This document shows positions 29,201-64,000 of a stretch of DNA of 64,000 bases, piece by piece. The stretch is from the NCBI GenBank assembly GCA_914767715.1, contig OU612067.1, positions 23,164,162-23,228,161 of the forward strand. The letters are read 5' to 3'. Source of the stretch: Membranipora membranacea. Lineage: Eukaryota > Bryozoa > Gymnolaemata > Cheilostomatida > Membraniporidae. The number at the start of each line of letters is the position of its first letter. Position 1 is the stretch's first letter. Made by a program: the position numbers and the translations under genes. A model generated the notes under the pieces. The model saw only the letters and a list, made by a program, of their open reading frames with translations, was not told the origin of the DNA and searched no databases.

Positions 29201-32200
29201 CTCAAATTGTACCTATGACTTTATTGAGGTATAACAAACAGGTTCCGTTTTTGTTTGGAAATACAAATCATAAGCTAGAAAACATTCCAGTTTTGCAGAG
29301 AAAAATGTTTAGAAAGTAATCTCATGATGAGAGCAGAGACACATAATATTTAAAACCCACAACAACGCAAATAACTAGCCATTGAGATGTGATGTGCTCT
29401 TAGTCATCGACCATCTGATCTTTTTTGTTGTGCCCCTCAATCAGCAACAAATCAATCTGCATTCTCTTTCCTGTAGGTTCTCGGTGGTCCCGATTCCAAC
29501 TCCCCACAGCTTACTAAGATATGTCAGGATAGAAACCAGTCGAGCTCAGTCACCTCAACCGGTAACCAGATGTATGTTAGATTTAAGACTGATAGTTCAT
29601 CTTCAGGCCTCGGCTTTTCTGCTAACTTCTCATCTGTTGACCAGGGTGAGTATGAGAGTGCAAAGAGGAACAGGCATGAGACTTCATAAACTATAAAAAC
29701 ATTTATTATAATCCAATTTGCTGAAGTCATGTTGTTTGTACTAAAGCAACATAGCCAACAAATGATTGGCCAAGAACAAATTAATGTATTGAAGAAAAAA
29801 CGATTTAAAAATCGATATGACGATGAATGCACTTTAGATTGCACATGAATGTAGTTTAAATCTAAATCATATTGTGAGTTCACAATTAGAAATATATAAA
29901 TCTACATCATTGTTTGAGTGATTTGTGAGCAAGACCCCCCCCCCCCCCCCCCTAGCAGGTTTCAGCAATCAGATAGTCTTTACTGTTTATAATTAAAAGA
30001 CCTCCCTGGCTAACAATTGAATCTATTTAGGCTGCGGAGGTGTGTTCACTACTCCTACTGGCAACATACAGTCCCCCGGCTACAATACCGGCCATCCACA
30101 CAACACAAACTGTGAGTGGAACATCACCGTGGCAGCGTTCCAGACAGTACAGATCACATTCAAGAACTTTGACCTTGAAGATCATGATGCCTGTATCTAT
30201 GACTATGTAGCTGTAAGTACATAGAGTCATAGTAAATGCAGTTGAATGGTGTAATGGAGAATTGTTATGGACACTCGAATTAAGATTGCAAGTCAAATAC
30301 ATCATGTTTCAGTCATTTGTGTTTGAGTAGAGCCACCATATTGCGATTCAGTGTTGTTCGTTACACCTAACCAAATCAGATTCTGTACAACTGCCAATTG
30401 ACTTGACAATGGCTTTCTGGTGAAATGCTAAATTTGCGAAACATAACAAAAGTCGTTTACTTGTAGATCTATGATGGATTGCTGACTACTTCACCACAAC
30501 TAGATAAAATCTGCGGCTCTAATCTCACAAACCATACATATACTAGTAGCGGTAATACGCTTAGATTGAGAATGGTAGGTTATCCTGTCGGCCTAGAAGG
30601 CTCAAAACTTGCAGTGGGATATTAGTTAAGACTGAGAGCCAAGAACATGTTATGCTAACGCGAGGAATTTCTGATGGAAATATATCATATTAATTTAATA
30701 CAATTGCTTGAGGTGAGAAATGTATTTGATTTCCATTTTAGGTGACCTTCTGGCTAACTTGAACAATTTGCTTTGTGTAGTAAGAGATCATGCTTATCAC
30801 GAGAAATTTATCACTTTTGAAATGATTAGGTTGCTATTGTGTACGTACAAGACACTGTATTGTGTAGGGAAATATATGCATTGGTCATGGCAATCAAATG
30901 ACTTGACTAAGATGGATGCCAAATACATGTTTGTAAGGAGTTGTCTCCACAACATCAAAGGGTACACAACTATTAACTACAAAACAGTTATATTCATTGT
31001 TTTTAAAAGATCATAAGGATTTACAGACAATGATTTAACAATTATTACAGAGAACTGACTCCTCCAGTAATGGGAGAGGATTTGATGCTTCCTATAAGAC
31101 AGCATGTGGAGGACGTAAGATTGTAGGAGACGGTGTAGAAATGATCAGATCACCAAACTATCCTCTGAACTACGACCCTAATACTAATTGTACTTGGACT
31201 CTTATGGGAGCATTACCGGGTACGTGTCTTTTCCTTTCATACTTAAAACATAAATTTTATTTGGAGTTAAAGATTCACATTGATTGCTTACATGGTTGCA
31301 AAATATTGCATTGATGCCTTTATCACCAATTTGATCGAAATCTCAAATGGAGAGGCTAGAATAGTAACTTCAATAGTCATCCCTCTTCACGCGATGACTT
31401 GTAAAATCTGTCAAGCCATCATTTGGTTGTTGGTTGATAATAACTGCTGTTTATCCTGAATTGATCACGCTTATAATGATTTTAGTGGACAGAATCACGC
31501 TTCAGTTCAATGATATAGATATAGAGGAGTCCCAGTCATCACAAGGCTCGGGAGAAGGTCTCTGTATACACGATTCTATCAGGGTATGTCAGATTATTTA
31601 TCGTGATGGTAGTTTTTTACAGAATTCATGTATGTACGCCTTTGAAATCCTAAATCATTTTTCAAAAGCCTTCTATGACTGTATGAAACTTGGGCATCAA
31701 TTCAGATTTTAGTTAGCAGTGTGACGTTGACTGGTTTAGACAATAAAGAATGATATCAAATAATATGATTGAGTGTGTATGATAAAGGATAATGGACGAG
31801 ATGACAATTTTGTCTGGTCCTCTCAGGCCAACTGTATTTTTTTTGGTTCTTATAATAATAGTGGCGTAATTGGTGACCTGCAGATCCCAGCATTGTAAAC
31901 TGATGAGATGAATTAACACTGGTTCTTTGTTCTGTCTTCAGGTACTTCAAGGAGATAATGTGGACGCCCCCGAACACGGCAGATACTGTGGTGATGGTAT
32001 ACCCCAAGCCATAACATCAACTGGTTACGCTCTGACTTTGGTCTTCAGCTCAGATGCCTCTGTTCAACAAGGAGGGTTCTCTGCTTCTTATAGCAAATCA
32101 ACTTCATGTAAGAGAATTTCTATGGTTTTGTTTGATTGTTGACAAATTGAACATAAATTCATGACCCATTGGTCCTACTTCTCCTGGATTTACTCAAGTT

Positions 32201-35200
32201 TAAGACCAGTCCTGGAAATCGGCATGCAATAGAAGTATTCAAGTGAACTGATTCATTTGTGTAATACAAAAAAATTATCACCAATCATAACTTACAGGGA
32301 AGAAAAAAGAAAGATATATGAAACTAATTAACAGTGTCAGGCGATACTCGGATGTGTGTTTCTTCGTACTGGATTGCATGGGTTTTATGTGATATGGCTA
32401 TATTATGGTTTCAATTATTTCTCTCTATTATATAAGTCTGTGGAGGGAACTTTACAGCCACACATGGAGCATTCAGTACACCCAGCTATCCAGACCCGTA
32501 TCCCAGAGATGCTGAGTGTATCTGGTATCTCAACGCTGCTCCTGGTAACCAAATCCAGCTTAGTTTCACGTAAGTAACAGGTGCAAGACATATTATTGAA
32601 TCCTTCGAATTCATCATGCAAAGCAGCAGAGCAACTTATGGAGGATGGGTATACCCTCATTTTGACCGGGTGTTCTTTCCATAAATTTAGTGGTAAATAT
32701 GATTACAATACTGTCCATGGTTATACCATTGCTTGGTAATAGTAACATTCTCTCTTTTGTATCTAATTATTGAAATATCATTTATCAGGGCGTTCGACAT
32801 AGAAAACACAGACGGATGTAACAGGGATTATGTGGAGATCAGAGATGGACGTGATCAATCAGTATCATTAGGCAGATACTGTGGCCAGTCTATACCAACA
32901 AACGTATCAGTGGCTCAGTCAATGTACGTCAGGTTCAGATCTGACGCAGCAAATCAACTATCAGGATTCACAGCCCAGTTTAGCACTTGTAAGTAGTCAT
33001 TTAATTCACTCAAAGTTTGGAAGCAAGGTAGATTCGGCTAAAAATCACTGTTTCGGTGTAGAAAGTTGTAGATAGACTCCTATTTATATACAAATCTCGG
33101 GTGAATGTCGGTTAATTCAGGAGCCTCATGTTATGCTCATGATATTTCGGCTCTCCGGTTACTGGAGGTGATAAGCTTAATCTTAGGCTATGTATAAAGA
33201 TCATTAAAACAATTATAAGATAGCAAATCTCCTTGCAAAGATTGACATACAGATTGTTTACTGTATTTTTCACCCTATTTACAGTGACAGGAGGTGACAT
33301 GGTTGGTAATTCTGGCCAGCTTGCATCTCCACTCTATCCAAGAAACTACCCACACAACGCTGATCATACCTGGAGTATTATCGTTGATCAGGGCAAGAAA
33401 GTCAGGATTCAGTTTGTTGAATTTGATATTGAAACAGGCTCTACATGCCAGTATGACTACCTTCAGGTAAAATTATTTCACGTTGTGTAAAATGATTGAT
33501 TGAGTTAGTAGTATCTAGTAGTTTACTAATCAATTAGCCAATGACTGATTTGAACTTAGTTGAGACTCTTTAAAAAAAGTTTTTGACTATAGTGCAGATT
33601 GCAATTTGAACTAGATATCTATCCTAACAGGTTAATATGAGTCCTTTCTCAATGTGATATACTTTTTTCTAGTTCCTGGATGGCCCAGCAGACAGTGGAC
33701 CACTAGAGCTGATGAAGATTTGTGGTACAAACCCACCCCAGCCGTTCAGTAGCACAGGCAATGTGATGACAGTCGTCTTCCATACCGATGTATCTGCAGT
33801 AGGTAGAGGTTTCCTCTTCAACTGGACTGCTGTTGATCAAGTGGTCACAACTCCTGGAACAACCCTAGAACCAGGCATCGCACCAGGTAAATATTTCCTG
33901 TTGTCATTGTTACTATTATTTATGTGGATTGACATCAATAAGTGTTCCAGGTGTAAATCTGTATCTACAGGGATAGAGGCCAGGTTTGATGACTGGAGTG
34001 TTTATTTAAATGGATGAATTTAGGAACTACGCAATAAGATTCCGATACAGTTTTGATCTCTTCTATCTTCTTGCAGCTGGATGTAACTTCGAGTTAGTTG
34101 CCACTGATTCTGCTCAGAACTTAACCTCACCCAACTGGCCTGAATGGCATGGACTGTACATGGACTATCAGATCAACAGGAGGAGAAAAGAATGAGCTGA
34201 CAATCGTATCACTAGATATCGAGGCTTCCGCAACATGCCTCTATGACGCCCTGCAGATTTACGATGGTATTGTGCTTAGACCATGTATTTTACACCAGAC
34301 TCTCTTTGAGCGCAAAGCCAGTAAATACAGTTGTGTCCCTTATTGACTGAGTGGCACGCCAATTAACAAGATTCAAAGGAGTGCATACAATCAAGCATAA
34401 GCAACATAAGATATTGAGATAAACCTGAAATCGAATATTCTACTGCAGTTGTTGACGGGACTAACATATTACCATGACCATATATCATGATTAAATTCAT
34501 GTGCCATCTTGTGGTACAGGCTGCAGGCTTTGTTTAGTGTATTGGTTATAACTTCACCCTTCACCCTCTATTGATTTTAAATTACAGGAGAGAATGAACT
34601 ACCTGGTAGGCTGTTGGATACTAAGTGTGGTAGAATCACTACTGTACAGCCTGGAATTAAATCTAGCGGTGGAAGCATGAGACTGAGGTTCACATCTGAT
34701 GTCAGCGTAACGCGAGCAGGATTCCAACTCCAATATAAGACCAGTACGTACAGTATAAATTAGTAATTCTAGGCTTTTTCAATTTTCTAGCCTCCGCCAT
34801 ACATACCCTCTTTTAGCTCATCGAAGTTGAATTGATGAAAATGGATTGCAAAAAGTTTGCAGCTTATATCATGTTGGCTTTTTTGAAAGTCTTGCAAAAC
34901 TTATTCTCCATTTGTATAAATTTTTTCATTATGTCTGTCAAACCCACTCTGTTTTGAAGTGCTGTCATGATTATATCAATCAGTCAACCAGTTTAACGGC
35001 TTTTTTTCCTGACCTATTGTGTTTTATTTATCCAGCTTGTGGAGGAATTTTGACAGAAGCTCAAGGTGTAATTCTCTCTCCTAATAATCCAAATGTCTAC
35101 CCTGTAAATTCGAGCTGCCAGTGGATGATTCAAGTTCTTACAGGTAGAACTATAGATCTTACAGTTGAAAGTTTCAGTCTACCCAACTCAAATAACTGTA

Positions 35201-38200
35201 CTGGAGACAGGCTCACGGTAAGTAAATAATAAAGTAAATATAGTAACATAAATATGATGTGAATACCAACGGCATAGTTGATGACTGTAAATTGTTTTCA
35301 AATTCCCAAAGATTGCTCAATCTTTGCATTTAATAATGTTTTACATACAACTAGCGATAGAAACCCAGGTTATCCCACAAGTCGACATACTGATCAGATT
35401 GCCACTGTGTTTTTTTGCTGCCCATGTTTGAAACCCAAATAAATTTGAAGGGATTTAAGACTGAATCTCTACTGAATATTTTGTGATGGTCCTCATTTGC
35501 TAGATTTTGAATGGTAACAACGAAGACTCGCCATCTATGGAATCTGACTGGGCCTATTGTGGTAATGGTCTAACTGCTCCCAAGACATTCAGCTCTGCAT
35601 CTCACTTCATGTGGGTTGAGTTTGTATCCGACTCTAGCCAGGATACCAGTGGTAACTTCAGAATCTCCTATGAAGAGGTGAGTACAGTCTTCATTAGAGC
35701 CAGACAAAATTGTGTCTGCAAATCGGACATATATAACTTATACTGCACTGTGTGCTGATGCCTACTATATTTAATTATCTCGAAATTTAGTACAAAAGTA
35801 GTGGTACTGAACCTATGCTATCTATTGGTGAACTTTATTATTTTGATGAAGAGTTTGTTCCCTTGCCCATTCAACCAAGAGGCTGCTATGCTGTGCATGT
35901 AGACTAATTGAGAGGGAAAGTATTGTACATAACAAGTTGTAATCTCCACAGCCGAGCAGAAGCAGCAAGCAATAAATCTCAAATGAATGTCTTGCTAAAA
36001 TATGGAGCATCTCCCTTCCATTATTGTAATTATCGCAAAGTTGAAAAATTCCATTTACTTTCTGTAGAAATCAGTTGTGTGTGGAGGACATTTGCTTGTA
36101 CCTGATGATGATAATTTCGTGGGTTCATTTTCATCTCCTGGATTTGGCGAAAACAACTACCCCCACAATGCTGACTGTGTGTGGATCATAACTGCTCCAT
36201 CTAAAGCCAGAATTCAACTTGACTTCCCAACATTCGACTTCGAAAATCATGTCACGTAAGTTAGCTTGTAATTTGTGTTGGGCTTGGGCAGTCGAATTTC
36301 TAGCTTGCTGTGTTTACCAATTCTACAAATGTTTTACAGCTCCCCGGCATCGCCATTCTGAAATTCATAAGTAATTTTTGGTATCTTTGAATTTGACTTG
36401 CTAGATAAGCAATCTTGATATGTGATGACGTTTACTTACAATGGCATTCAATATCTGATACTAAATAATTGACTGCATCACTTAGTAAATCATAGGCCTT
36501 GTTTATTCAACAGTGTCTTGGGTAATTGGAGGTAAGAATTCTAACTACTTTTCTTTATTGTGGTCGTGACGTGAATGATATTTTATTCAGCATGGTTTTA
36601 ATACGCTCCTTTTTTCGCCATTCTTCTACAGCTTTAATTTTATAATGCTTGATTGTGATTCATTCAACCCAAGTACAGCATGTTCGACAAGATCTCGAAT
36701 CAACCCTTGACCTCTCTAATCTACAAAACATGAATACTCTATTAAATTTCATTTGTAGCTTTAACTATGACTACCTTGATGTAAGGGATGGGGGTACTGA
36801 GAACAGCCCTTCATTGTCTAAGCTCTGTGGATCAGATAGAATATCTACCATTAGGAGTACCTCCAATGTGATGAGACTTAGACTTGTAACTGATGATTCC
36901 GTTGGTAAAGGAGGATTCAACATTACCTATAGGAAAGGTTAGTTGGGTTGTATATCTCCAGGTATCACCTGTCAAAGAGAAGAATATTTGTTTCTTATTT
37001 GTTTTCCTTTGATCCCCTGATTGTGGGTACAAACTTTGATATAGAACTTTGGTCACGACCAGATTTTTGAGCTAACCCCTAACGGAAGGAAAATTATAGG
37101 TTTACACTCAACTTTGTGGCCAGTAGATACGGTCAAGGGTGGGTCGTTGCTGTCCAACTACCCTGTGAGAAGATGAATGATGTTGTTTAACCAAGCTGGT
37201 TACTTGACCCAAAGGCTGGCAGGCCAGTCTTCCAGACACCACCACAGTCACCGGGATTCAAACACAGGATGACTTGCATGAAAAACCCGCACTTCACCAA
37301 TTGAGCTACGGCTGGTCTTATAAACATTTGTGCATATTCTCATAATCTTCGTTTTCTCTTTACAGATAATTGTGGAGGTACTATCATTGGAGCCAGTGGA
37401 CTCATACAATCACCACTGTATCCCACAAACTACCCCAACGGAGCAGACTGTGAGTGGTTCATACAGGGACCTACTGGACACTTCCTGCACATCAACTTCA
37501 CACAGTTCCAGCTGAGTAATCAGTTCCAGCCTGATAACTGTACTGGACAGGATAGCCTCAGCTTCTACAACAGAGACAGATTTGGTAATAATATTAACAC
37601 TCAAACATTTTCATTCATAGACCCTGCGCTAATCCATTGCGCAGACATTTCAAAGTGAAATTGGCCCTACCAATCGCAGCGGTCCATGCAGTTTCCCTCA
37701 AACTATTGCTGTGTCACCTTGAAGCCACTGCTGTTTATTTTGGTAATCTTTGAAGAGACGTGAGGCTGGCTACAAAATATTTGTAGTTCTTTGTATACTT
37801 TTCACCAAAGAGTCAACCAAATGCTTTCTTTGTTGTAGGGAATACTACTGATATGATAGGGAGTTATTGCGGTAGAAGTGCACCCGCGGACATCAGAACG
37901 GCTGATAGCAGAGCTTACATAAACTTTAAATCTAACTCTAATGATAACTACCCAGGATTCTCACTGAACTTCTATGCCAGCATTGAGAGTAAGTAAAGAT
38001 CATGAATTTGTCAGGACAAGATTGAATTACATAGCCTAAACCTTGGTTTGTTTGGTTTCTATTTGGCATAATGTAGATTTTGAATGAAAAAGACCGCCTC
38101 ACAAATCTGTTCTCTCAAAATTTAAGCTACAGTACTACCCAGCCCCAGAAATATTATGCCAGTATGTGCAGCTACAATAAAACGCTTTTGTCGTAATACA

Positions 38201-41200
38201 ACTTCTACTCTTTAATTTAGGTTGTGGCGGACAGCTAACAACACCTACGGGGTCAATCCAATCACCTATCTACCCAGGATATTATCCACACTCGAGAATA
38301 TGTACATGGTTAATTACTGTACCTTACGGCAAAAGGATCACACTGACCTTCGCTGATTTCAACATCGAGGTTCACAGCAACTGCTTCTTGATTATCTTGA
38401 GGTAATCTATTTTATATGGTGATCTCTAGCATCAGCCAAAACAATGATGTTTCAAAATCCAGTCCAGATTGTTTAGCCACAGTTTCGTTCATACTCCTCC
38501 AATCTTTACAGACACAGTGTTTCTAACAGTGTATACAAAATTACATGCATGGTAATTTCAAACATGAAATGAAAAATAAGATTGGAGACAGTTTTTGATC
38601 ACAAAAAACCTTCTGTACACAACACTTGGTATTGGTTTGTAGGTCAGAAATGGTCAATTGGAGAGATCACCTGTATTAGGCCGATACTGTGGTAATAACA
38701 CAGCGCAGACCGTCGAATCAAGTGGTAACAAAATGAAGATTCAGTTCAGAAGTGACGGCAGCGTCAGTAATGGAGGATTCAGAATTACTTACACATCAGA
38801 TCAAGATGCAGGTTGGTTAACAACTTTACAGTGTGCTGAAGTCGTATTATAGCTTCTTTTTCAGGACTTGCCTAAACTACTTGTCACTCTATTGATGCTC
38901 ACCCGTTCTTGTTACAACAGATTTATGAATACCATGGAATAACCGCAAGAGCCCTGTATTTCAACTTTATTTGCAGTTTGCGGAGGACTTATAAATCCAT
39001 CATCAGGGGACGTTGGATACATTGTAACGCCTGGATATCAAGAGACCATTATGCCAAATGGTGACTACAATCTCACAGGTGTGTAAAATGTGCGACAACA
39101 TCTCAGCTGAGATCTACATTATCTGTGTTAGACTGACGAATGTCTCACATTTAACAGCTAACACCTTTCAAATGCATTCCAATCTATTTTTATCTCAGAG
39201 GCCCCATTTTTGTTTTGTTTGGCTAGATATGTTTAATATGAATTTTTGGCATCTCATGAATACTCAAAAATGAAATATTTGTCAACAATAAACAGCAGTC
39301 CCTTAGTCCTTATGACAAAAGTTCTGTTTTATGGTCCTATATAACCAGGTCTTACTCGAAGACTAGTAATTTTATTACATTTATCAGCGTTGTGATAAGA
39401 CTGTTGCTATTTTTCTTACTCTTTGATCCGTTGGACAGTGATTTTTCTATACAAAAGTTAATTTGATTAAAAATTCAAAAGATCTGTCTGTTATATATAT
39501 ATATATTTGATTCATTTGCAGGCCAGTATCCCAATTTGCTGCAGTGTGAGTGGGTGATCGAAGGAGCCACTGCTTTGAACCAATCTGTCATTCTCCAATT
39601 TGAGCCAGATAGATTCAAACTCGAGCACGATGGCGAATGCCGATACGATTTTCTGTTAGTTCACGAAGGTGAGTTTGAAACAGTGATTATCCATCTCCAA
39701 ATGTCTTTTTTAAAATGATCAGGATCCACATGACTCAAAGCTACACATCACTTGGATGGTTGGTTTTTAATCCGCATGGCAGAGTGCTAAACAATAGTTT
39801 GTGTCTTTGTAGGCATAACATCTACTGGTCGAGACGTAGGCAGATTCTGTAGTAATCTAACCAACAATGTACCCCGAGTTGTATCTGTTCCTGGTAATCA
39901 AATGTGGTTAGCCTTTGCTTCAGACGTGTCCGTTCAACACGAGGGATTCAACATCACATATCAGTTTGCACGTAAGTTCTAATTATCATCCCTCGTATCA
40001 AGTTTTTGTTTCATCCTACAAATTGTAAATTGTAAAAGCAGGGTCTTTTTGCGTCAACTTGCAGACCCAGTATTGCTCATTTCGCCCTCATGGATGCTCT
40101 CTGCTGAGAGTTACAAATTTATAGGTGTTCATCTAGGCTGAGTTCCCCAAATAATAAGATCAGATGTTTTGGTGTTAGTATGATTTCTATTGTTTTTGTG
40201 TTTCAGCATGTGGTGGCGTCTTGCAGAGTGACTCAGGAGTTATAACTTCACCCAATTACCCAAATAATTATGACCATGATATAGGCTGTGCCTGGGAGAT
40301 CATTGCGGAGGATGGTGCTCAAATCGAGGTAGGGAGCAAAGATTTGAATGGAAAATTAACATTTTGCAAAATTGTTGTATACTTTGGAGTTGGCCCTCTT
40401 TGATTCACAGAAGTTGATATGCGTGTCTGTAATAGAGCACAGTCCATGTAGACTAGTGTCTAAAAATTTACGTTGAAGTCTTGTATGTCATCCTTGATTG
40501 GCTAACCAACTATATACATATTAGGGTGCAAAGGTCATTACCTTCCTTTCATTGCTTCACCTCTGATCATGTGACAGTGGAGCTCAGAATATCAAAGAGT
40601 CCTATCGAGATGATTTTTCATCAACAGAGTTTTTTATATTTTACCAGCATTTGAGGATTCGTTTCTTAGCTATGCTATGAGTCTGACACTAATTGATAAT
40701 CACAACATCAGTTAAAAGTATCTTCCATTATCAAATGATTCCAAAAAATAATCATGAACTGACACGTGACTCAGCTTAATTTAGGGAAGAGTATACCAAT
40801 CTGTTTGTTTCCTGCGCTCACCTTTTCTTGGACATGAAACACGTGATTTCAATACATTTTTTACATATCCCCTTCTTCTTACATTTTCAGCTCACTGTTG
40901 ATAGTTTCAATCTAGAGAGCAGTACAAAATGTGAGTACGACTACCTAGCAATCTTTAATGGAGGCTCACATTCATCACCTCGCATAGCCACCCTGTGCCA
41001 GAGTAGCTCCTCTGGAAATCAGTACATCTCAGCAACTAACCGACTCAGACTGGAATTTGTGTCAGATTACAGCGCCAGCGGAAGCGGCTTTTCTCTCTCC
41101 TACAGAGTCAGGCAACAAGGTAAGTCGTTAACAATTTTTCGTTGGTACATCAAATCTTCTACTTGGTTTGTGTCTTTAAGGTGATGCCGCTTTGTGTTAT

Positions 41201-44200
41201 TTCTTACAATGCTATTCTATGATTTAAATTTTCAAATTTAGAGCGAATCATGCCTTTTCGAAGGGCATTAGAACAAGACTTTTCCTTCTGGTGGGTGAAT
41301 GATAATACACAATTGGGGTATGGAGACGCCTAGCTGATGTGTTGGCTCTGATTGGTTGGCGGATTGGTGGTTCACCAGTCAGAGCCAACACATCGGCATA
41401 GATGGGCCCTGGCAGGAAGTGGCTATACACGGCTTTTTGAAAGGGTACATACATTCTAAATCGGCATCATGAGACAATCTTCAAATTTTTGTTACAGGCT
41501 GTGGAGGCGTATTTACTGATCTTGCTGGAAACATTTCTTCACAGAACTACCCAGGAAATTATCCCCACAATGTAGAATGTTACTGGGACATTATGCTTCC
41601 TGCGGGTTATACAGTCATCATGCAGAACAATGGTACATTTGATATTGAGTCTGGGGGTTCAACAGCAGACTGCTTCTATGATTACATTGAGTTCTTCAAT
41701 GTAGACAGTGATGGAGTTGAGGTGAATATATTTGTTAGAAAAGGATGTTTCTTGTCCTCTTCAGAATCAAATAAGTTTTTGCTGATACAAACTGAAGGGA
41801 AGCTTACAACTTACACACCAACTTACGACTACCTTCAGTCACACTGACATTTTTGCCGCAGAAGCCTTAATTCATTTCCAATGCATAGATGAACATGCTA
41901 TTACTGTCGGCAACCAGGGGGTCCTTCACTTAGAATGAGGGACTATGGTTATAAAGCCAAATCATCGCTGTTTTGTTTGTTCAATTAGGCTCAATTGTTC
42001 CCAAATCAATCACTGAAAAGATGAATAGTTTCATGAAGACCTCTAGCATGTCATGCTCACTCCGCAAGGAGCTTATTTGATTCTCACTATGGCAGTTTTT
42101 AATTATAATACTCCTAGGCTGCTTATTTGCATAGTCATCGTTTTTTTTATAGACAAGAATTGGGGACCAAAAATATTGTGGCACAACACCGCCGCCAATC
42201 CAAACTTCCTCTGGTAATCAGGGTCAAGTTCAGATCAGATCCTTGGACTAACGGACAAGGATTCAATATGAAATGGACAGCCGGTGTGTAACTTATCTCG
42301 TTTCAACTTTTGACTTTTATCTGGCACAATTACTTGCTTAGGGAGACAGCATGATTTGACAGCTTGATTCATAAACATAATGTCTGGCTAAAGTTTCATT
42401 ACGTTTTATGGTGAATGTAGCAAATGTGTCTGTTTTGTTTGGTGGTATCTCCCTGACCAAACAGATCAGAGCCATCACATTGGCTAGGTGAAAGGTGATA
42501 TAAAATAGTTCAGATATGTAAAAATATCCAGCACAATGAGTGAGGCAATAGTCTGGAGTTAATCATTTGAATTCTATGACTCGTATTCAGTTAATATAGC
42601 TATAGCATTCCCTTCTGTTACAAGATCAACTGATTTGTATCTCAAGATTAAATTGGCCCATCTGAGTATTGTTGACCTTTGTGACAATCCTAATGTGTTC
42701 CAGGTTGTGGCGGAACCTTTGACGATGAATCTGGATTAATCTTCTCTCCTGGTTATCCGAACAACTACCAGCACCATCTACTTTGTGATTACGTTATAAC
42801 TGCGAGACAAAATCAGTTTGTTGTTTTACAGTTTGATGAATCAAACTTCAGAATTGAGGGTAAGTCAGTCGATAAACAATGTTGATTAAGTATTACTTTG
42901 TTGAATTTTACCAACCATAAGAGGCTCTCTTGGGAGCGCAAGTGGTGCAATTGATAGAGCATGGGTCGAGAGGTCTTGTTTTCAATCCCCGGCGGATCTT
43001 TGTTATGTCAGGAAAAGCATCCGACCCCAAATGCTCCTGTGCCCCTACAGAATCCACTCTAGACCCGTACTGAAAAAAAACCAAACAACATTAAGGTTTC
43101 TCATATGGCATCACAGGGTTTCAAGACTATAATAAGAAGCTTTCTATGTTAAATAGATTGATCCATCTGACTTGCAGGATGGATAAATGTAGCTCATTGA
43201 TAGTTATTTTTTTTAGCTTCAAGTAATTGTCAGTATGATTCAGTCGAGATATTTGAGGGCTCAGAAAATGGAACCAGCAAGGGACCTTTCTGTGGTCTCA
43301 CCGCACCAGAGCCCGTAGCTACTCGTGGCTCTATGATGATAAGATTCAAGTCAGACAGTGACACTTCGGATGATGGATGGAAGGCTACCTATGTCAAATC
43401 AGGTAATTGTAGAGAAAAGTGCCGGTTGTCTGCTGTGACTACTCTGATCAAACTTAGAGACCATCGAGATTCATAGACACCAGGCTCACAGAAAAAAGTT
43501 ATTGCAATCAATATCAAAGTTATACATAATAGAATCAAAAGCGGTAGCCATTGTGTTGTCAAAAAAAGTAGTACTGGTAGTGTGTAGCTCCACATTTTCA
43601 CGTAAATTAAAAATATTTTCAATTTGTTATGAAGCAATTCTTAGTAAGAAAACATTGGTCTTAATGGCTAGTGTCTCATTACTTTGGCTTATCATGAAAG
43701 CATTAGGAGTTCAACTTTTTCGAAGCGGCAATGATAACACGCTTGAATAAGATGTTTTCCATTGTTACAGACTGCGGCGGTTACCTGAATGATTCATCTG
43801 GTTTATTGAAGAGCCCGACACACCCGGTTGACTATCATCATAACCTGAACTGTACCTGGTTGATTGAGGTGTCGTCTGACCAGGCTGTCAATCTGAGGCA
43901 AGTTTTATTTATGCTGTTTGAACTATGAGCACAACAACACAAACATCGCAGTTTCTGGTTTTCTATTTGAAGATTCCAAAGTAATGAAAAAATTTCACAT
44001 TTTAGATTTGAGGAGTTTGATGTTGAATCAAGCGTTAATGGCAACTGCCAGTATGATTACCTAGCTGTATACGACGGTACAACTGTAGATTCGTCCAACT
44101 TGATTGGTCGATATTGTGGTGTTACCTGACAACGTGAAGTCTACGTCTAACACCATGACCGTTCAGTTCAAAACAGATGGTAGTGTGGCAAAGGGTGGAT

Positions 44201-55994: not shown

Positions 55995-57155
55995 TTAGCG
56001 ACGTGGGTTGAAACCGGGGAACAGATACAGCTTTCTTCCCTTAGTCAAGGTTTTAAATGGTACAGCTGTCTGCCCTGAACAGCTATCAGGATATTTCTCT
56101 GCTAACGATTTACTTTCTCGGCTTACTCTGTCCTGTACCTGCAATACAAAGTAGTAGCTTGTAGAACTATTGTGAATATAATAATTCACTTTGATGAGCT
56201 CTGATTATCCATGACTAACGCCTAGTTTGATACCAAGATATTTTCCGGTGTGTCGTGCTAAGTTTGAATAACTTGCCTCTGTAACTTACCAATAACAACA
56301 AGAATCGAAAAAGTCTCGTTTAGGCGCTATTAATAGTATACATAGTCATACTGGAGAGGGCAATTGTCCACACTGCTGATTCGGATTGAATTTAACAGAC
56401 GTGAGTGACCCAAACTAACCGCCTGCTCGTGTCATTCATAATATTGATTGGGAAAAAATACCAAAGTTTTTCACATATGATCGTCATCATCAGCAGTAAG
56501 CGGAGACGATAAGGTAGATCACGGGTTTTTTTTTTTTTGTTATGTCGTAACTTCCTCATCAGAACTAATATCGCATATCCTTGGGAATGAGTGAGTAAGT
56601 TAGTTAATTAGTTAAAGTCCACTCACAATTTCAAAGAGACTGAAGAGATCTCTGTGACAGGCATGTTTAAGCAGTGTAGTGACAAGGCATCGTATCAGCA
56701 GTGAACCAGTTACTTCATTTCTCATAGACATGTAGGCTGCAATCAAATGCAAATACTGTGTAAATCTAGTTTTATACATTCAACAGGGAATATGATGGCA
56801 ATCAATGCCGCGATGTTTTAAATGTTAAATAAACACTTTAATATATAAAACATGCCCTAAGATTATTCATTGTCGAGTAGTGCTCTTTGTGGGATTAGTG
56901 CCGTTGACCTTGTCTGCGAGGAATAAGTACTACATTATAATGGCAAAAATGATCTTCCTCACTCACATTCAAAGCTAGATTTGATCACCATTAGGTCCTC
57001 CGTATTGAGGTGGTCTATTTCTAGTGGTTGACTTCGATGTGATGGTTGCTCTACTTCTGAGGCAGCTGCTTGTATTGGCTTGTATATCTTTGGCTTCCAT
57101 TGATCTTCAGTAGTCGACTGTTTTGCGGCACCAGCCTTTCCGAGATCTCTCTCAA
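55995..57155 (-). CDS. exons: caspase linker and p10 subunit
   Basis: Exon 57155-56967 is an intersubunit linker with candidate Asp cleavage sites (LEID, NTED) and the first p10 strand (DLMVIKSSFES). Exon 56736-56627 reads YMSMRNEVTGSLLIRCL. Exon 56138-55995 reads VQDRVSRESKSL and QTAVPFKTLTKGRKLYLFPG, the standard caspase end. Confidence 0.9.
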
Positions 57156-60100
57156 CTAATGAGCAGTAAATTTAAATATTGTGATGTGTGATGAATAAAC
57201 AAGTCAATTGCATCAAAACCCAATTGAACTTGGAGCTATGTTACCAAAAGTAATGGGAAAACAGCCCCGAGTTATATTACTTGCCACAAATACCGACTTC
57301 AGGGTAGGCTCTTTCCAGAGAATTTTCATATGATATAATATAAATTAACTGGTAATTTGTCCCAATATGATATGGACCAGCATTAATTCAGCACCAGACA
57401 TCATCATTGAAATCTTGAGCAATTTTACATCCATACCTCCAGAGCAGGCTTGAACAACAATGACCTTGGGCTTGCCAGCCATGTTTGGAAAATTTGAAGA
57501 AGAGAGCTGGCTGTAAATGTCCTTTAGCTTGACACCAACTTGATCTGAGGCCAGGATAACATCGTCTTCACATCCATGAGTCATCAGACAGAGAAAGAAC
57601 ATGCCAAAGACCTTGTGGGCAGCATGTTTGGTCTCGTCTTGCACTGCTTTGAGCATTTCCTATAAATTGAAACGTTCTGGAGTCACTAGCAAGTAAGTTA
57701 AAAATTTGACAAATCTATTTACCTGAATCATATTTCATATCATTCGTCTTTTTTTCCGTGGCAGCAAGAAACCTTATCAAAGTAGGTCGTTCCATTGCTT
57801 TTTTATCTTGTAAAACTTTACTCACCTCTGCAGTCACATCCTCAACAACATCCGCCAGCTCAAAATCGAGAGACTTCAGCATGTACTTCAGATTCTTCAC
57901 ATCCATGTCTGATCCTTTTCGTCTCATCTGTAGAGCTCCTCTACCATTAAAGTTCTCTATGTTGATTATTAGAGCTCTGCCCCTTCTACCTCTACTCATC
58001 TTATATATCTGTAAAACAAGGAGGGCAAGAGAGAGATAAGTAGAGATAGTGCACACTACTGCATAGAGTATAATGTGTAAACTATAGACGTGAAATTAAT
58101 AGTGTTGTACACCAGGGTCGTAGTTTAGCAACAATGGTATGGGATGTGGAAATCCTTGAGGGTGCGAAGTAAAGGGTATTGTAAGCTCTTAAGGCTCCAA
58201 GGCGTTTTAATGATATAAGTAGCATAGGGAAGTCCCAAATAACTGATACTGACATGGAATATTCAATTATGGCATTTTAGGGGAGGCGGAGAGCCCCAGC
58301 CTCCGCTAGAACTACGGGTCTGCACACTCTCAAAGTAACTGGGTTCTACACTAATAACAAATTGTGAAGCTCATTGAATACTTTTACCAGACTAGTTCTG
58401 TTGAACAGTTCCTTTATCTCTGATTTCTCTGTTGGAGCTGGGCGTGGTCTGATCTCATGTAGATGTGTGTCTTCTGTAGAAGGTGAGAGATAACCTCCAC
58501 CATCCTCAGATATAACACTGTCTGAGCGTCCTCTGGTCAAAGTTGCCTGCTCTGGTTCATTGTACTCCGTTGCTGAAACACAGCTTACCTCAGCTTGAGG
58601 CTGCAAATCTTCATTCTCTTCTTCACCTGGAAATCAAAATAAATAGACACGTACTGACTTGTTCTAGAAGAGTGGAAAATTCAGTCTATAAATCTCAGCC
58701 ATTCCACAGTTAATATCGGGGTATGTGCCTATTCATTCAAGTCATATAAGAAAGTGATGTTGACAATTGAAATGCTTATTGAGGTAAACTCACTAGAGCT
58801 GTCCGGCACTGAATTAGTTGAGACATATTCCTCAAGCTGTGATATTCCTGTTTCAGTGATGCTAAAACCTGTAAAAAATAACAAAAAAAACACACAATTA
58901 TACAATATTATGCATGTAAAAAAGTAGATTGCGAATTGTAAAACATTCATGTGCAATTTTATAGTAACATTGTCTTTTAGAAGTATATTAATTCACTCAC
59001 AGGGAAATCCGAAGGGTTTTGGGACAACAGATCCAGCCACTTTATTACATCGGCTTGTCTCGTCTCCGGTGTAGGCTGTGAGGCGAGAATTGAGGCGCTC
59101 ATAGCTGTAGTGTGATTGGTTAACTTTCTTGAACCATTTGGGATTGACCAGAGTTGTTGGTAACTTGTGTTGAGTCAGCAGACAGTGAGAGCAGTAGAAG
59201 ACATGTTCATAACGGACTCCTTTCCACACAGATTCTAGTTCAGATGTGAGCTGCTTCGTTGAATCTAACAGGCTCTTCCATGCATCACAAATTCTCTTAG
59301 CTGGTGTAAGAACTATCAGTGACACCTGTTTCTTGTTCTGGTCATGTAACAGATATCTCATTATTCCATTATCTTCTTGTACTTGAGCGCCGTTGCTACC
59401 TGCTGCAACTGTATTGGCTGGATTGATGTGTATGTCTAGAAACCCTGCAGTAATCAGGTCAAAGATGTACCCAGGTACCGACATACCGTTGAGATACAGA
59501 TCGATTTTCAGTGGAAATAGCTTTGGGCTAGGTTTAGCTGCAGATATGATTTGACTGCTGAAATAAGGAATGATGAACTTCATGCTGTCATCTTCTCTCC
59601 CTATGGGCCCGCAAATCAGGTGGAATGTTTTCAGAAGTGTTACGCCCACCTCAGCTGGCAGCTCTGATTCAGATTTGAGCAGATTGTGAAGCAGGGCAGC
59701 ATCGATGACCCCTGTTGTTTTGAAATCCTCCACCATTTTCACATACTCTCGTTTGTCAACATTTCTGTCATAGAATCGGTAGGGCACAAAGACCTCAATA
59801 CGATCATCCCATGTTTGGTCAATCCGATGATCATACAGTGTCCCTATGAGAGAGACAAGAACATCAGGTCGGTGGAATATATATTCACACAGCTTGTCAT
59901 TGTTTTGATACCACATTATTCTTCCTATTTCATGAATGTATTGTAAGATATATCGTTTTCTGCTCTTACGGAAACCTTTCACAATGTCAGTAACCTTAAT
60001 GAAAGGCCTGTCTGTCTGCACGGTAAGATCCATAAGTGTCTTATACCAGCTACCTGGTATCTCCGTCATAAGATGAGAACCAACTTCGCTAAGGGCGTTC

Positions 60101-60937
60101 TTAAGAGAATAAATAACAGTTTCAGTTGAAGTAGCAGATAACTCCAATACAATATTGATGAGGGACTTAGATTTGTCACTGAAACTTGTCATAGAAAAGA
60201 ACGGGCTTGTAGGGGAACCAGCGCTCTCTTCTGCCTCTATTATCTGGAGGCGCAGTTTTTCTGCTGTTGCAATAAGTTGCTGCTTTCTGATATTAAGCTG
60301 CTCTTCAGTAAGCTTATCAGTATGCGTGAGAACTAGCACTGGTTGACCAAGGTTAGGACGTGCTAAGTAGACGTGAGATATCCATCTCATGCAAAGATCT
60401 TGTGTTGCAGCATCCTCTCCTTTATCAGTCACCAAACTGTCAAACTCTGCTATATCTATGACAAGAAGAGGGACAGACTGAGTTTTAAATGTTAATTGGT
60501 GGGCAAAGTGATATACTTTATGCCCACCAAAGTCAATGAAAACCAGTGTAGATTTGTCATCCACTTCCGCTTCACAGATATTGAATACTCGAGTTGCTTC
60601 ATCCAGCTTGGAGTCTGTAGCAGATCGTTTTGTCAGCACCCGCTGGTTTTCCTGAACACTTCTAACCAGGCTTGTTTTTCCAGCTCCACTTTTGCCGAAC
60701 ACAGTTACTGGGATAAGTTTTACGTTGCTTTCTCGCTTGAACTTTAGATCATCTAGATACTTCTGTAGAGCTGCTCCACCCTGTTTAATGACGGCGTAGG
60801 GAGGAGATAAAAGTGCCAGGCAGCCTTCGTAGTCGAAGTCTGTAAGTGTTTTGTTGTTGAAGAGTCTCTCAGGTATTGATTTGAGTTTCTTGTTGTCGCT
60901 TACATCCAGTGATGTTAACTGTTTGAGGTTCCCAAGG
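55995..60937 (-). CDS. LRR-Roc-COR-caspase fusion protein (5' end not found)
   Basis: Eight minus-strand exons: 60937-59001, 58868-58794, 58626-58388, 58008-57826, 57659-57437, 57155-56967, 56736-56627, 56138-55995. All have AG acceptors and GT donors and their phases join without error, giving about 1,030 codons to a TAA at 55995-55997. Order: leucine-rich repeat (LGNLKQLTSLDVSDN), Roc GTPase with P-loop GKSGAGKT (60673-60696), DFGG (60523-60534) and THTD (60316-60327), then COR (IGRIMWYQNNDKL), an acidic Ser/Thr-rich linker, caspase p20 and p10. The caspase keeps the pocket Arg (RRKGSDMD), His in MTHG (57576-57578), Cys in QACSG (57444-57446) and Arg in SMRNE. No kinase domain is present. 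A GTP-regulated death or immune protease is inferred; the substrate is unknown. Confidence 0.92.
57437..58008 (-). CDS. exons: caspase p20 subunit
   Basis: Exon 58008-57826 begins YKMSRGRRGRALIINI, a typical caspase opening. Exon 57659-57437 carries FFLCLMTHG (catalytic His) and VIVVQACSGG (catalytic Cys). Position 4 of the pentapeptide QACxG is Ser in place of the usual Arg. Confidence 0.92.
58388..58868 (-). CDS. exons: acidic linker between COR and caspase
   Basis: Two small exons (58868-58794 and 58626-58388). Rich in Glu, Asp, Ser and Thr (EEENEDLQPQ, SEDGGGYLSPSTED). No death-fold domain (CARD, DED, Death) is recognisable. Reading through the second donor would reach a stop at 58346, so an alternatively terminated ROCO form without the caspase is possible. 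Confidence 0.8.
59001..60937 (-). CDS. exon: last LRR, Roc GTPase and COR domains
   Basis: 1,937-nt exon. The N-terminal 40 or so residues are a leucine-rich repeat with IPERLF. Residues from about 80 to 290 form Roc, with all nucleotide-binding motifs. The rest is COR, ending FGFPC across the donor. Compared with known ROCO proteins, Roc and COR are of ordinary length. The acceptor implies at least one more upstream exon. Confidence 0.92.
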
Positions 60938-63590
60938 CTGTAAAAAATAACCATATTTGTTAGCTGTGGTATGAATTTTGCTTGTTTTGAGAATATTAAT
61001 GATAAATTGTTAACTATTGTTGATTTAGCAATGGAAGTCTGTCTGTGTTTTGTGGTTTAGAGGTGAGTTGATTGTTGGATCTTATATCCAGTGATTGTTA
61101 ACTGTTCGAGCTTCCCAAGGCTGCCATAATCACCATATTTATAAGCTATGCTTTGTCTTTTGCTTGATTGGAGAATATTAATTATTATTGATATAGCACT
61201 GACCTAGCCTATAAACCTTTGGTCTAGAAGAATTGCAATAATGGAGAAAATCTTGGTCAGATAATTGGCTGGATTGAATTTTGAATGCTGGGTTATATTC
61301 TTTGTGTATTGGGACAGGATCTCTTCAACGACTATTTGAGGAAACAACATTTATTATGCTTATTAATTCTATTTCTTTCACTAAGACACAAAAATAGTGA
61401 AACAATATGGAAAGCAAGATACTGCATTGATGCGGAATAGGTTAGCCTGCTCGTATTTAATAGCACAGATATTTGTTTTAGCATTTATTTTGATGATGAA
61501 AGTGTTTTGATTATCGATGCTTATGATCAATTTACGGGGGATTGCTATTTGATATTTGTTGTCAGGCTGCTCTTTTGATAAATTTCAGATCATCGAAAAT
61601 CCTTAATTCTCGGCCACTTGCATCTAATGAGAAAATATTATTGCATCCAGACAAGACAAATGACTGATCAAACGAATGTTTTTATCTGATAACATAAGTC
61701 TGTCTATATTTTTGTAGTTAACCGTGGAAGGGATAATACGTGCTTTTTGAGCTCTTTCTCCCTAACCCATCTTTTGTTGGTAACTTAAAAAAATTTAGTT
61801 ACCGAATCACAATGGAGCAGCCATTCACTATGATCCCATTCGATTTTCCACGTTGAATGAAGTTGACATTCTCAATTCAAATGGATTCCTACTACACTCA
61901 CGATGATAAAACTTGCCTGCCCGCCTGGTCGGGCCTCCCGGATTTTTTTTTTTCATGTGTGTTTATTGCTAAAGATAAAATTGATAATATATTTAGACAA
62001 AGTGAAATTGAGTGAGAGAAAGGCATAAGATTGAATCATAAAACGTGAATAATTGCAATATAAATATGTAAAAAGTAAAGGAACAGTCTGATAGTCTGCG
62101 GCTAGAGTGTAGACCGTCCAACTGTAAATCAGGAAGGTCAAATACAAGACACACCGGCAAGGACGCGTAGGACGAGTGCCCCCACCAGCTGCAGTCACCA
62201 CTGCCCCACAGACAGGAAGCTAGCCTCACGGGCACGCAAGTCTGAGAGCCTATCTCCACTCCCTTTAGGCACTTGCTGTACAGTGACACACCAGTGCATA
62301 ACAAGGACCTCCCACCCCGATTGTTGTTGGCTTTTTTTTACTTGAGGTAATTGTTTTCTGTGTTGTAAAAAGTTTTGCGTTTTAGATTCATCAGGAACTC
62401 AGTTGAGTATGTTTTTAAAAGGAGTTTTAAAGTAAAAATTTTAAGTAGCATTTGGATAATTCCCAAAGTTTAAAAAAATTATGTTACATGTTCTCTGAGT
62501 TTTTTGTTCAGAATAACACGTACACACACTTTTTGAAGAATAAACACTCGTCAAAGATTTGTGTTGGTGGCATGGCCATAGTCTTGTATGCTATCCATTC
62601 ATTCATTCATTCGCGGCTTCCATACGACACAGTTCTGAAAGCAAATGAAGCAACACAAACAAATATTGCATCGATGCTATTTCCATGATTCCATAACTCC
62701 TAAGATCAATGTGAAATCGAATCTTCAAAACATGTTGAGAGCAGCTTTAAAAGGTCTTTTTCCCAGCCCCCAGCACCCTCGGATGTTAACCTCTTCAACC
62801 TCTCCAACCCTCATATTACATCCACGAAGAGTAACATACTTAGAGATTGCCCACTACAATGTTCACCTTTACCTACAATGTCTACCTCTACAATGTCCAC
62901 CTCTACAACGCTTTGCTGAAATATTACCTTGAACCTCATGCACTCAATTTCCGAATACAAACCTAAGCAACAAATAAACCTATTGATCTTTGGTTATTTG
63001 AAACTAAGCGAAGGGGTCTGAAGTTGGTGTATGTGTAAATCTCAGTTGCGGACAGGTAGAAGTAATTTATTAATTGATCAACTAAACACTAAACACCTTG
63101 AATGCCGCCATTCAACTGACCCACTAATACCAATTTAAGTTAGTATAATTACATTCATGGTTTTTAAAGACAGGCAAATTCATGAAAATTAACTCATAGG
63201 AACATAAATGAATGTGAGTGTCTACAAATATGAGTATAATCATCCTGTCTGAGAAACTAGTCAAAGTTCTGCAGATCAAAATCTAGTTTGCCTCAGTCAC
63301 CTTACATTATTATTTATTTTCACATCACCACAACAACTTATTACTGGAAAATCCATATCATTATAACAATAAAGGATTTTATAAAGCTATACATACTGCT
63401 AATTTGGCGCACGAGTGGACCTACGGGCGTATGCATACGGTTAGCCGTGACTGCGTTGGTTAGATCTTTATGTTCCCTGGCCCAATATCCCCCCGTCATA
63501 TCACATAGACGTACTACAGCAAACTCACGAGGAGCAACATCAAGCTTGTCAACACCCCCACCCCAAACCTAGCGTCAAACCCCCACTGCC
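60938..63590. other. upstream of the ROCO-caspase exons, no further exon recognised
   Basis: Apart from the duplicated LRR fragment, it holds a GC-rich patch at about 62130-62330 with an open but unrecognised frame, an ATTC microsatellite near 62596-62611, and an imperfect CTACAATGTCCACCT tandem run at about 62850-62910. Further LRR exons were sought on the minus strand and not seen. Confidence 0.5.
61085..61205 (-). pseudogene. duplicated, decayed copy of the LRR exon start
   Basis: About 120 bases resemble 60902-61030, spanning the acceptor and first codons of the LRR exon plus intron. Reads LGKLEQLT, then an extra base (AACAATC for AACATC) shifts the frame. A tandem duplication offset by about 181 bp. 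Confidence 0.7.
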
Positions 63591-64000
63591 ATGCGGACCG
63601 AGATGGAAATGTGCCTTAACTTCTATGGTGACGAGATCATGTCATTGAAAGCTGAACTTGCAGCCATTAAAACGGAGAAGATGAAGGAAACGGAGGCAAG
63701 TGCGGTGAAGGTAAAACAGGACGACGAAATGCGGCAGCAAGTGAATAAGCTTCAACAAGATCGTAACCTGAAACAACTGAGGATAACTGGAATACCCTTT
63801 ACAACTGCTGAGAACCTGACACTGCTCATGGAGAAGCTAGCTGAACTGATGAAGGTCGACAACTTTGCTAGAAATGCTATTGATTCAGTCTACCGCGGAA
63901 ATGTGAACACCGTACCACAACCTCCTCCATATTCATTCGATTCAAATCGCTAGCTATAAGAGATGAATTCAATGACGGACGTAAGCAGATTGGTCACCAC
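63591..64000 (+). mobile_element. partial LINE ORF1-like sequence, frameshifted
   Basis: Starts MRTEMEMCLNFYGDE. It has a charged coiled-coil region (LKAELAAIKTEKMKE) and a globular part with LRITGIPFTTAENL typical of non-LTR retrotransposon ORF1 proteins. The frame breaks near 63925 and similarity resumes in another frame as FIRFKSLAIRDEF up to the window edge. A degraded or truncated retrotransposon running out of the window. Confidence 0.6.

Follow-up and report, generated by a model that had tools for sequence, protein, structure and literature searches.

A 64,000-nucleotide stretch of the genome of the bryozoan Membranipora membranacea (contig OU612067.1, positions 23,164,162 to 23,228,161; hereafter the window) carries a gene predicted to encode a leucine-rich repeat (LRR)-Roc-COR GTPase of the ROCO type that is joined through a linker to a caspase. 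At the level of sequence, this LRR-Roc-COR-linker-caspase fusion is well supported. We consider it likely that the gene belongs to a large bryozoan family of single-chain receptor-caspases in which ROCO dimerisation would drive the caspase domains into proximity.

Gene model and domain content

A preliminary description had placed an LRR-Roc-COR GTPase followed by a caspase between positions 55995 and 60937, distributed over eight exons with joining phases. Its coordinates, domain order and content proved right, and the gene is located on the minus strand, running from position 60937 down to 55995. The eight exons yield 1032 open residues up to the stop codon, all seven introns are of the GT-AG type, and the exon phases match throughout. 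The features of the gene are as follows:

59001 to 60937, minus strand: exon A, one LRR unit, Roc GTPase and COR (open frame and splice sites; 645 codons, starting in phase 2 and ending in phase 1)
60781 to 60936, minus strand: LRR tail LGNLKQLTSLDVSDNKKLKSIPE... (LRR_4 at 13.3 bits, below its cut-off; fits the LRR consensus)
60433 to 60708, minus strand: Roc core with GKSGAGKT and DFGG (Pfam Roc, residues 77-168)
60316 to 60327, minus strand: THTD, shortly after the Roc core
59002 to 60051, minus strand: COR region, inferred limits (COR-A match at residues 296-369)
58794 to 58868, minus strand: exon B, short linker FSITETGISQLEEYVS (gene model; a like motif recognised by eye in other loci and in proteins of Watersipora subatra)
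58388 to 58626, minus strand: exon C, acidic Ser/Asp-rich linker, then KELFNR ahead of the caspase (gene model)
57826 to 58008, minus strand: exon D, first part of caspase p20 with a pocket Arg (RKGSD) (gene model and alignment to solved caspases)
57437 to 57659, minus strand: exon E, second part of p20 with the catalytic His (MTHG) and Cys (QACSG) (gene model and alignment to solved caspases)
56967 to 57155, minus strand: exon F, interdomain linker with the candidate Asp processing sites LEID and LNTED (gene model; putative cleavage)
56627 to 56736, minus strand: exon G, caspase p10 with a pocket Arg (SMRNEVTGS) (gene model and alignment to solved caspases)
55995 to 56138, minus strand: exon H, end of p10 (KLYLFPGF) and stop codon (gene model)

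In the tandem copies L009-L011 all exons are open, every splice junction and the frame are kept, and the exons contain no gap columns, whereas the introns contain 44, 47 and 83. As junctions and frames are kept in all three tandem copies and the exons, but not the introns, are free of gaps, the gene model is unlikely to have arisen by chance. The ratio of nonsynonymous to synonymous substitution rates (dN/dS) of the caspase exons was 0.22-0.28 in five close pairs and 0.07 for the near-identical pair L009 and L010; for Roc-COR it amounted to 0.39-0.50, and the caspase value was the lower one in six of six close pairs.

Peptidase_C14 was matched on the joined model at 131 bits (Pfam; E 7e-38, residues 759-997). 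The Arg of RKGSD, the His of MTHG, the Gln and Cys of QACSG and the Arg of SMRN align with their counterparts in caspase-3, caspase-2, an insect caspase and CED-3, bearing out the earlier claim of a p20 and a p10 with His, Cys and three pocket residues; the Arg of RKG, the Gln of QAC and the Arg of SMRN are those that we take to form the Asp-binding pocket. Candidate cleavage sites are the Asp residues in exon F (LNTED), where W. subatra has LNVDD at the equivalent place, and the acidic stretch of exon C. Pfam identified neither a CARD or DED prodomain in the 1032-residue model (5' exons lie outside the model) nor a NACHT or NB-ARC domain, leaving Roc as the putative switch; no protein kinase or death domain was matched in the model, which reaches the stop codon.

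The Roc identity of the domain in exon A is, judged by its profile matches and motifs, sure. Roc scored 29.6 bits on the joined model and 30.6 bits on exon A alone (cut-off 27), and among 28 exon-A relatives a Roc match was obtained in 27 and a COR-A match in 16 (Pfam, E<=0.01), the P-loop, DxxG and G4 motif residues of Roc being invariant or nearly so across these relatives. Comparison of the exon-A family profile with solved structures placed the Chlorobium Roco protein (3dpu, 6hlu) among the best matches with E values of 1e-16 to 3e-16, the match spanning profile positions 41-161 only. COR-A reached 17.8 bits on the joined model and 18.8 bits on exon A alone (cut-off 35.3), and the assignment of COR is based on place, size and these weak matches. 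Within the LRR-Roc-COR half, Roc lies above the Pfam cut-off and COR-A below it, and most of the LRR part is outside the window.

The gene extends past the window, which includes only about one LRR unit and neither the start codon nor the other LRR exons. Exon A opens in phase 2 within an LRR, and an upstream LRR exon with phase 2 at both ends is located about 7.0 kb before exon A, outside the window (L029:4134-4274, minus strand). Joined to exon A, it reads ...LRCIPE-S-LGNLKQL and restores the LRR unit (boundaries by eye). A search with the LRR consensus gave no second intact LRR exon in the window, and a start codon was found neither in the window nor in the fetched upstream DNA (L029). Outside the gene model, a decayed LRR-like stretch at window positions 61035-61130 (minus strand) resembles the start of exon A and contains an in-frame stop, which is present in the window copy, L011 and L012, while the stretch is open in L009.

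Related loci and exchange of caspase exons

The searched genome comprises 339 Mb in 18 contigs. Two genome searches together identified at least 111 ROCO exons whose open frame is large, on nine contigs; in one of these searches 68 exons were scored, 67 of which were free of stops. These family counts are lower bounds, and individual reading covered 32 further loci (L009-L028, L030-L034, L035-L037 and L038-L041). Behind the Roc-COR exon of 30 of these 32 loci, which are spread over nine chromosome-sized contigs, the His and Cys of a caspase follow in order and on the same strand. The other two are partial: L030 has the first caspase exon alone, and the fetched stretch of L037 ends after that exon. 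For L031 and L034 only DNA downstream of the ROCO exon was read, the ROCO exon itself being placed by the genome searches, and the His/Cys pattern does not pick up the Cys of L013 or the His of L039, although reading showed that these two residues are present. Eighteen of the 30 loci carry a caspase of the classical type and 12 (L013-L020 and L038-L041) one of a divergent type, the second exon of which exceeded the Pfam cut-off of 21.4 bits (L016, 28.4 bits; L017, 23.5 bits; L038, 44.1 bits). In loci of both types, a short exon linking COR to the caspase was recognised by eye.

The co-occurrence of Roc with Peptidase_C14, which had been suggested as a check on the fusion, was borne out in the genome. 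Among Roc matches with a frame of at least 370 amino acids (67 of 148 listed, compared with all 145 listed caspase matches, a list resting on 140 of 515 candidates scored), 33 of 67 were followed by a same-strand Pfam caspase at a distance of up to 5 kb; none of the 67 had one upstream, and none had one on the opposite strand on either side. Counted by similarity, a same-strand Pfam caspase within 5 kb downstream was present in 11 of 11 copies at 91-100% identity and in 13 of 13 at 56-57%. A further caspase cluster on contig C1 was sampled twice and turned out to be ROCO-caspase both times (L035, L036). In addition, giant exons (L038:2-5827, L040:1-4401, L041:1-4119 and, on the minus strand, L039) hold 15 to 58 LRRs in frame with Roc-COR; these LRRs are of 23 residues each and very similar (pattern count), and a divergent caspase follows Roc-COR. 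The idea that the long frames on C11, C1 and C3 are retrocopies of Roc-COR plus caspase was rejected, as the frame consists of LRR and Roc-COR and the caspase exons are still split.

The architecture is also present in public proteins of another bryozoan. In the NCBI database proteins P0016-P0018 of W. subatra, an LRR, a Roc-like GTPase, a COR region, an exon-B/C-like linker and a caspase are found in one chain. The caspase is 38-39% identical to that of the window over 99-100% of the search region, and Roc and COR are 36-38% and 27-30% identical, respectively, indicating another ROCO branch. From the end of COR through exon B, the window sequence is VPKPFGFPC-FSITETGISQLEEYVS and its counterpart in P0016 is VPTPLKFPC-FQLTDNEVAALDEYLS; COR-B reached 23.4 bits in P0016 (cut-off 27). 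In NCBI these proteins are named merely 'malignant fibrous histiocytoma-amplified sequence 1 homolog' (MFHAS1 homologs). The nearest relatives of the caspase were bryozoan (Watersipora, Bugula) for four of five matches in one search and six of eight in another. Thirteen metagenome proteins (P0001-P0013) share 32-57% identity with exon A, and P0003 is, by eye, nearly identical to L037.

Several lines of comparison point to an exchange of caspase exons between loci. L012 is 95% identical to the window in DNA from upstream to 12 bases inside intron 1 (window position 58989), after which other caspase exons follow; these match the C5 locus L034 piecewise at 73-85% DNA identity, and a DNA comparison of the window with L034 gave no match. 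There are 11 close copies, four at 91% identity including L012 and seven at 95-100% including the window copy. In a caspase tree based on about 120 residues, the window is placed with W. subatra (support 0.83), followed by L026 (0.91). In the Roc-COR tree it groups with L012, L025, L036, L023 and L024 (support 1.00), not with L026 or W. subatra. Since L012 switches caspase at intron 1 and the two trees disagree, caspase cassettes have been shuffled; as read from these sequences, either the backbone swapped caspases or the caspase swapped backbones.

Proposed mechanism and alternatives

A number of observations weigh against a family of functional single-chain receptor-caspases. The evidence for the fusion comes from genomic DNA and database proteins. 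The COR of the window protein lies under the Pfam cut-off, and so does Roc of W. subatra P0016-P0018 (18-21 bits, cut-off 27). The linker exons B and C carry no signal of purifying selection (dN 0.017 versus dS 0 to 0.014; three pairs with L011, few sites). In the divergent caspases the first exon is below the cut-off or unmatched (12.8 bits, 17.6 bits and no match in L016, L017 and L038, respectively), His-Gly is replaced by His-Ala in L013, one of the divergent copies, and the C1 paralogue L035 (L035:1866-3889) has a frameshift in Roc. Finally, a Pfam caspase was found downstream of just one of the 44 other scored ROCO exons; 11 of those 44 were read, and a divergent caspase was present in all 11. 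L013-L020, which had been considered as loci devoid of a caspase, were likewise found on reading to contain the divergent type.

In the proposed mechanism, the LRRs would sense a ligand, which may be a microbe, damage or tissue of a non-self colony. Ligand binding would change the state of Roc-COR, a nucleotide-dependent dimeriser in studied relatives, and this change would pair two caspase domains. Initiator caspases are activated by proximity, and the paired caspases would be activated in the same way and cut their own interdomain linker; the caspase may also be released by cleavage within the acidic linker of exon C. The outcome would be cell death or inflammatory processing, with ROCO dimerisation taking the place of the NLR/Apaf-1 platform and its CARD/DED contacts. 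For Roco proteins, a nucleotide-linked cycle of monomers and dimers has been proposed, according to the part of the review drawn upon here (PMC6337361). We infer GTPase control of the protease. Given the size of the family in the genome and its presence in another bryozoan, sensing, switching and cutting may be combined in one protein. As a broader and more tentative possibility, bryozoans would have evolved an equivalent of the inflammasome or apoptosome that consists of one protein and is switched by GTP. More than 100 receptor-caspases would sense and dimerise through LRR-Roc-COR and execute through the fused caspase, and cassettes of different caspase types, swapped between receptor backbones via intron 1, would diversify output as well as input of innate immune or allorecognition receptors.

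Alternatively, Roc-COR might restrain the caspase, a switch of opposite sign: the protease would be inactive in the GTP-bound form and would be released once the nucleotide is lost or the LRR part is cleaved. We regard this as improbable, and no decisive point stands against it. Sequence does not reveal in which direction the nucleotide acts, since the Roco model, in the available part of its description, has a GDP-bound form that is dimeric and does not settle whether monomers arise through GTP binding alone (PMC6337361).

About equally improbable is that the fused caspase serves as a bait or scaffold that senses caspase inhibitors of pathogens. Such a role would resemble that of integrated decoys, which are found in plant NLRs, and would fit a large and recently duplicated family, the swapping of caspase cassettes among receptor backbones and the strongly diverged second caspase type. 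However, catalytic and pocket residues are intact in the window gene, His and Cys are present in 30 of 32 other loci, and dN/dS is lower in the caspase than in Roc-COR in all six close pairs.

That ROCO and caspase are neighbouring genes, duplicated as a pair and transcribed separately, is very unlikely. In its favour, an early Met in exon D (IYKM) could start a separate caspase, ATTAAA occurs within the C-D intron, short W. subatra database entries are named caspase-3-like and caspase-6-like, and exons B and C show the absence of purifying selection between close copies mentioned above. Against it, these two exons are in phase and free of indels in close copies while the introns are not, the W. 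subatra proteins hold COR, both linker pieces and the caspase in a single chain, and even the caspase-8-like P0020 retains COR-B sequence (21 bits, cut-off 27). The A-B and B-C introns contain no AATAAA or ATTAAA, and an AATAAA is located about 360 bases beyond the stop. As the domain order recurs in 30 of 32 loci, the linker exon occurs with both caspase types and W. subatra has single chains, the available sequences suggest one gene rather than the two mRNAs that would contradict the preliminary description.

Surrounding sequence and known systems

Next to the predicted ROCO-caspase gene, CUB-domain exons occupy window positions 21986-41844 on the plus strand (Pfam CUB in four of four tested pieces), with further CUB-like pieces by eye up to about 49 kb, so that a large CUB protein adjoins it. 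A tandem array of a 12-base unit (24.3 copies, 99% match) is located at 20469-20760, and a 126-codon open frame without Pfam match at 63573-63950 on the plus strand, which by eye presumably resembles ORF1 of a mobile element. An Rfam scan of the window gave no match. Elsewhere in the genome, five of nine CARD matches have a same-strand Roc match no more than 2 kb away; sites of this kind are C7:20905324-20912677, C7:8655707-8660565 and C2:38355014-38356179. Therefore, ROCO-CARD genes probably exist as well, and these may talk to caspases in trans.

Initiator caspases usually carry a CARD or DED prodomain. CED-3, caspase-9 and caspase-2 have the order p20-linker-p10 in common with the window protein, His/Cys and pocket residues being aligned to CED-3 and caspase-2 and caspase-9 being matched by score; in the window protein the prodomain is replaced by LRR-Roc-COR. 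ROCO proteins have been grouped into LRR-Roc-COR alone, those with a kinase, and DAPK, as far as the consulted section of the review goes (PMC6337361). LRRK1/2, DAPK1, MFHAS1 and Chlorobium Roco share Roc-COR and LRR with the window protein (DAPK1 without LRR) but end, by the same partial source, in a kinase, a death domain or nothing, whereas the window protein ends in a protease (PMC6337361). ROCO domains are joined to CARD, death or TIR domains in Trichoplax (PMC4104024) and to TIR, death or kinase domains in anemones, including the LRR-Roc-COR-TIR protein NG1 and NG3 (PMC5094078), and TLR/MyD88-like proteins of Aplysia with ROCO have TIR or death domains (PMC9334734). As in the window protein, Roc-COR is joined to immune or cell-death domains, but these are adaptor, kinase or TIR domains, and no caspase is described in the portions of these papers that were available. 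Brown algae have a large LRR-ROCO family with one LRR per exon, exon shuffling and a proposed role as immune receptors; in the accessible part of that report the family is LRR-ROC-COR only, whereas the shuffled piece in the window family is the C-terminal protease (PMC11378527). A figure legend in a paper on sponge NLRs names caspase and COR, and the excerpt at hand describes no ROCO-caspase (PMC12909245).

In the open-licence PMC literature, covered mostly by top matches, no published description of a ROCO-caspase was found. The earlier suggestion of an undescribed architecture agrees with this literature. Public W. subatra proteins already have the architecture under another name, and ROCO-caspase sequences are therefore not new. 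Pattern searches of GTDB genomes and viral contigs gave 36 and 86 matches, none of which was confirmed as a Roc-COR relative; with one and two short patterns, this is a weak test.

The workings of the ROCO nucleotide cycle are still debated, as stated in the part of the review cited here (PMC6337361), and so, in our reading, is the way in which the cycle reaches an effector. Since the protease at the end of the window protein offers a simple read-out, the coupling of GTPase and effector could be measured directly. If the proposed reading is true, an animal caspase would stand under a GTPase receptor without CARD, DED or NACHT in the part seen, and a receptor family would be diversifying its enzyme end through exon shuffling.

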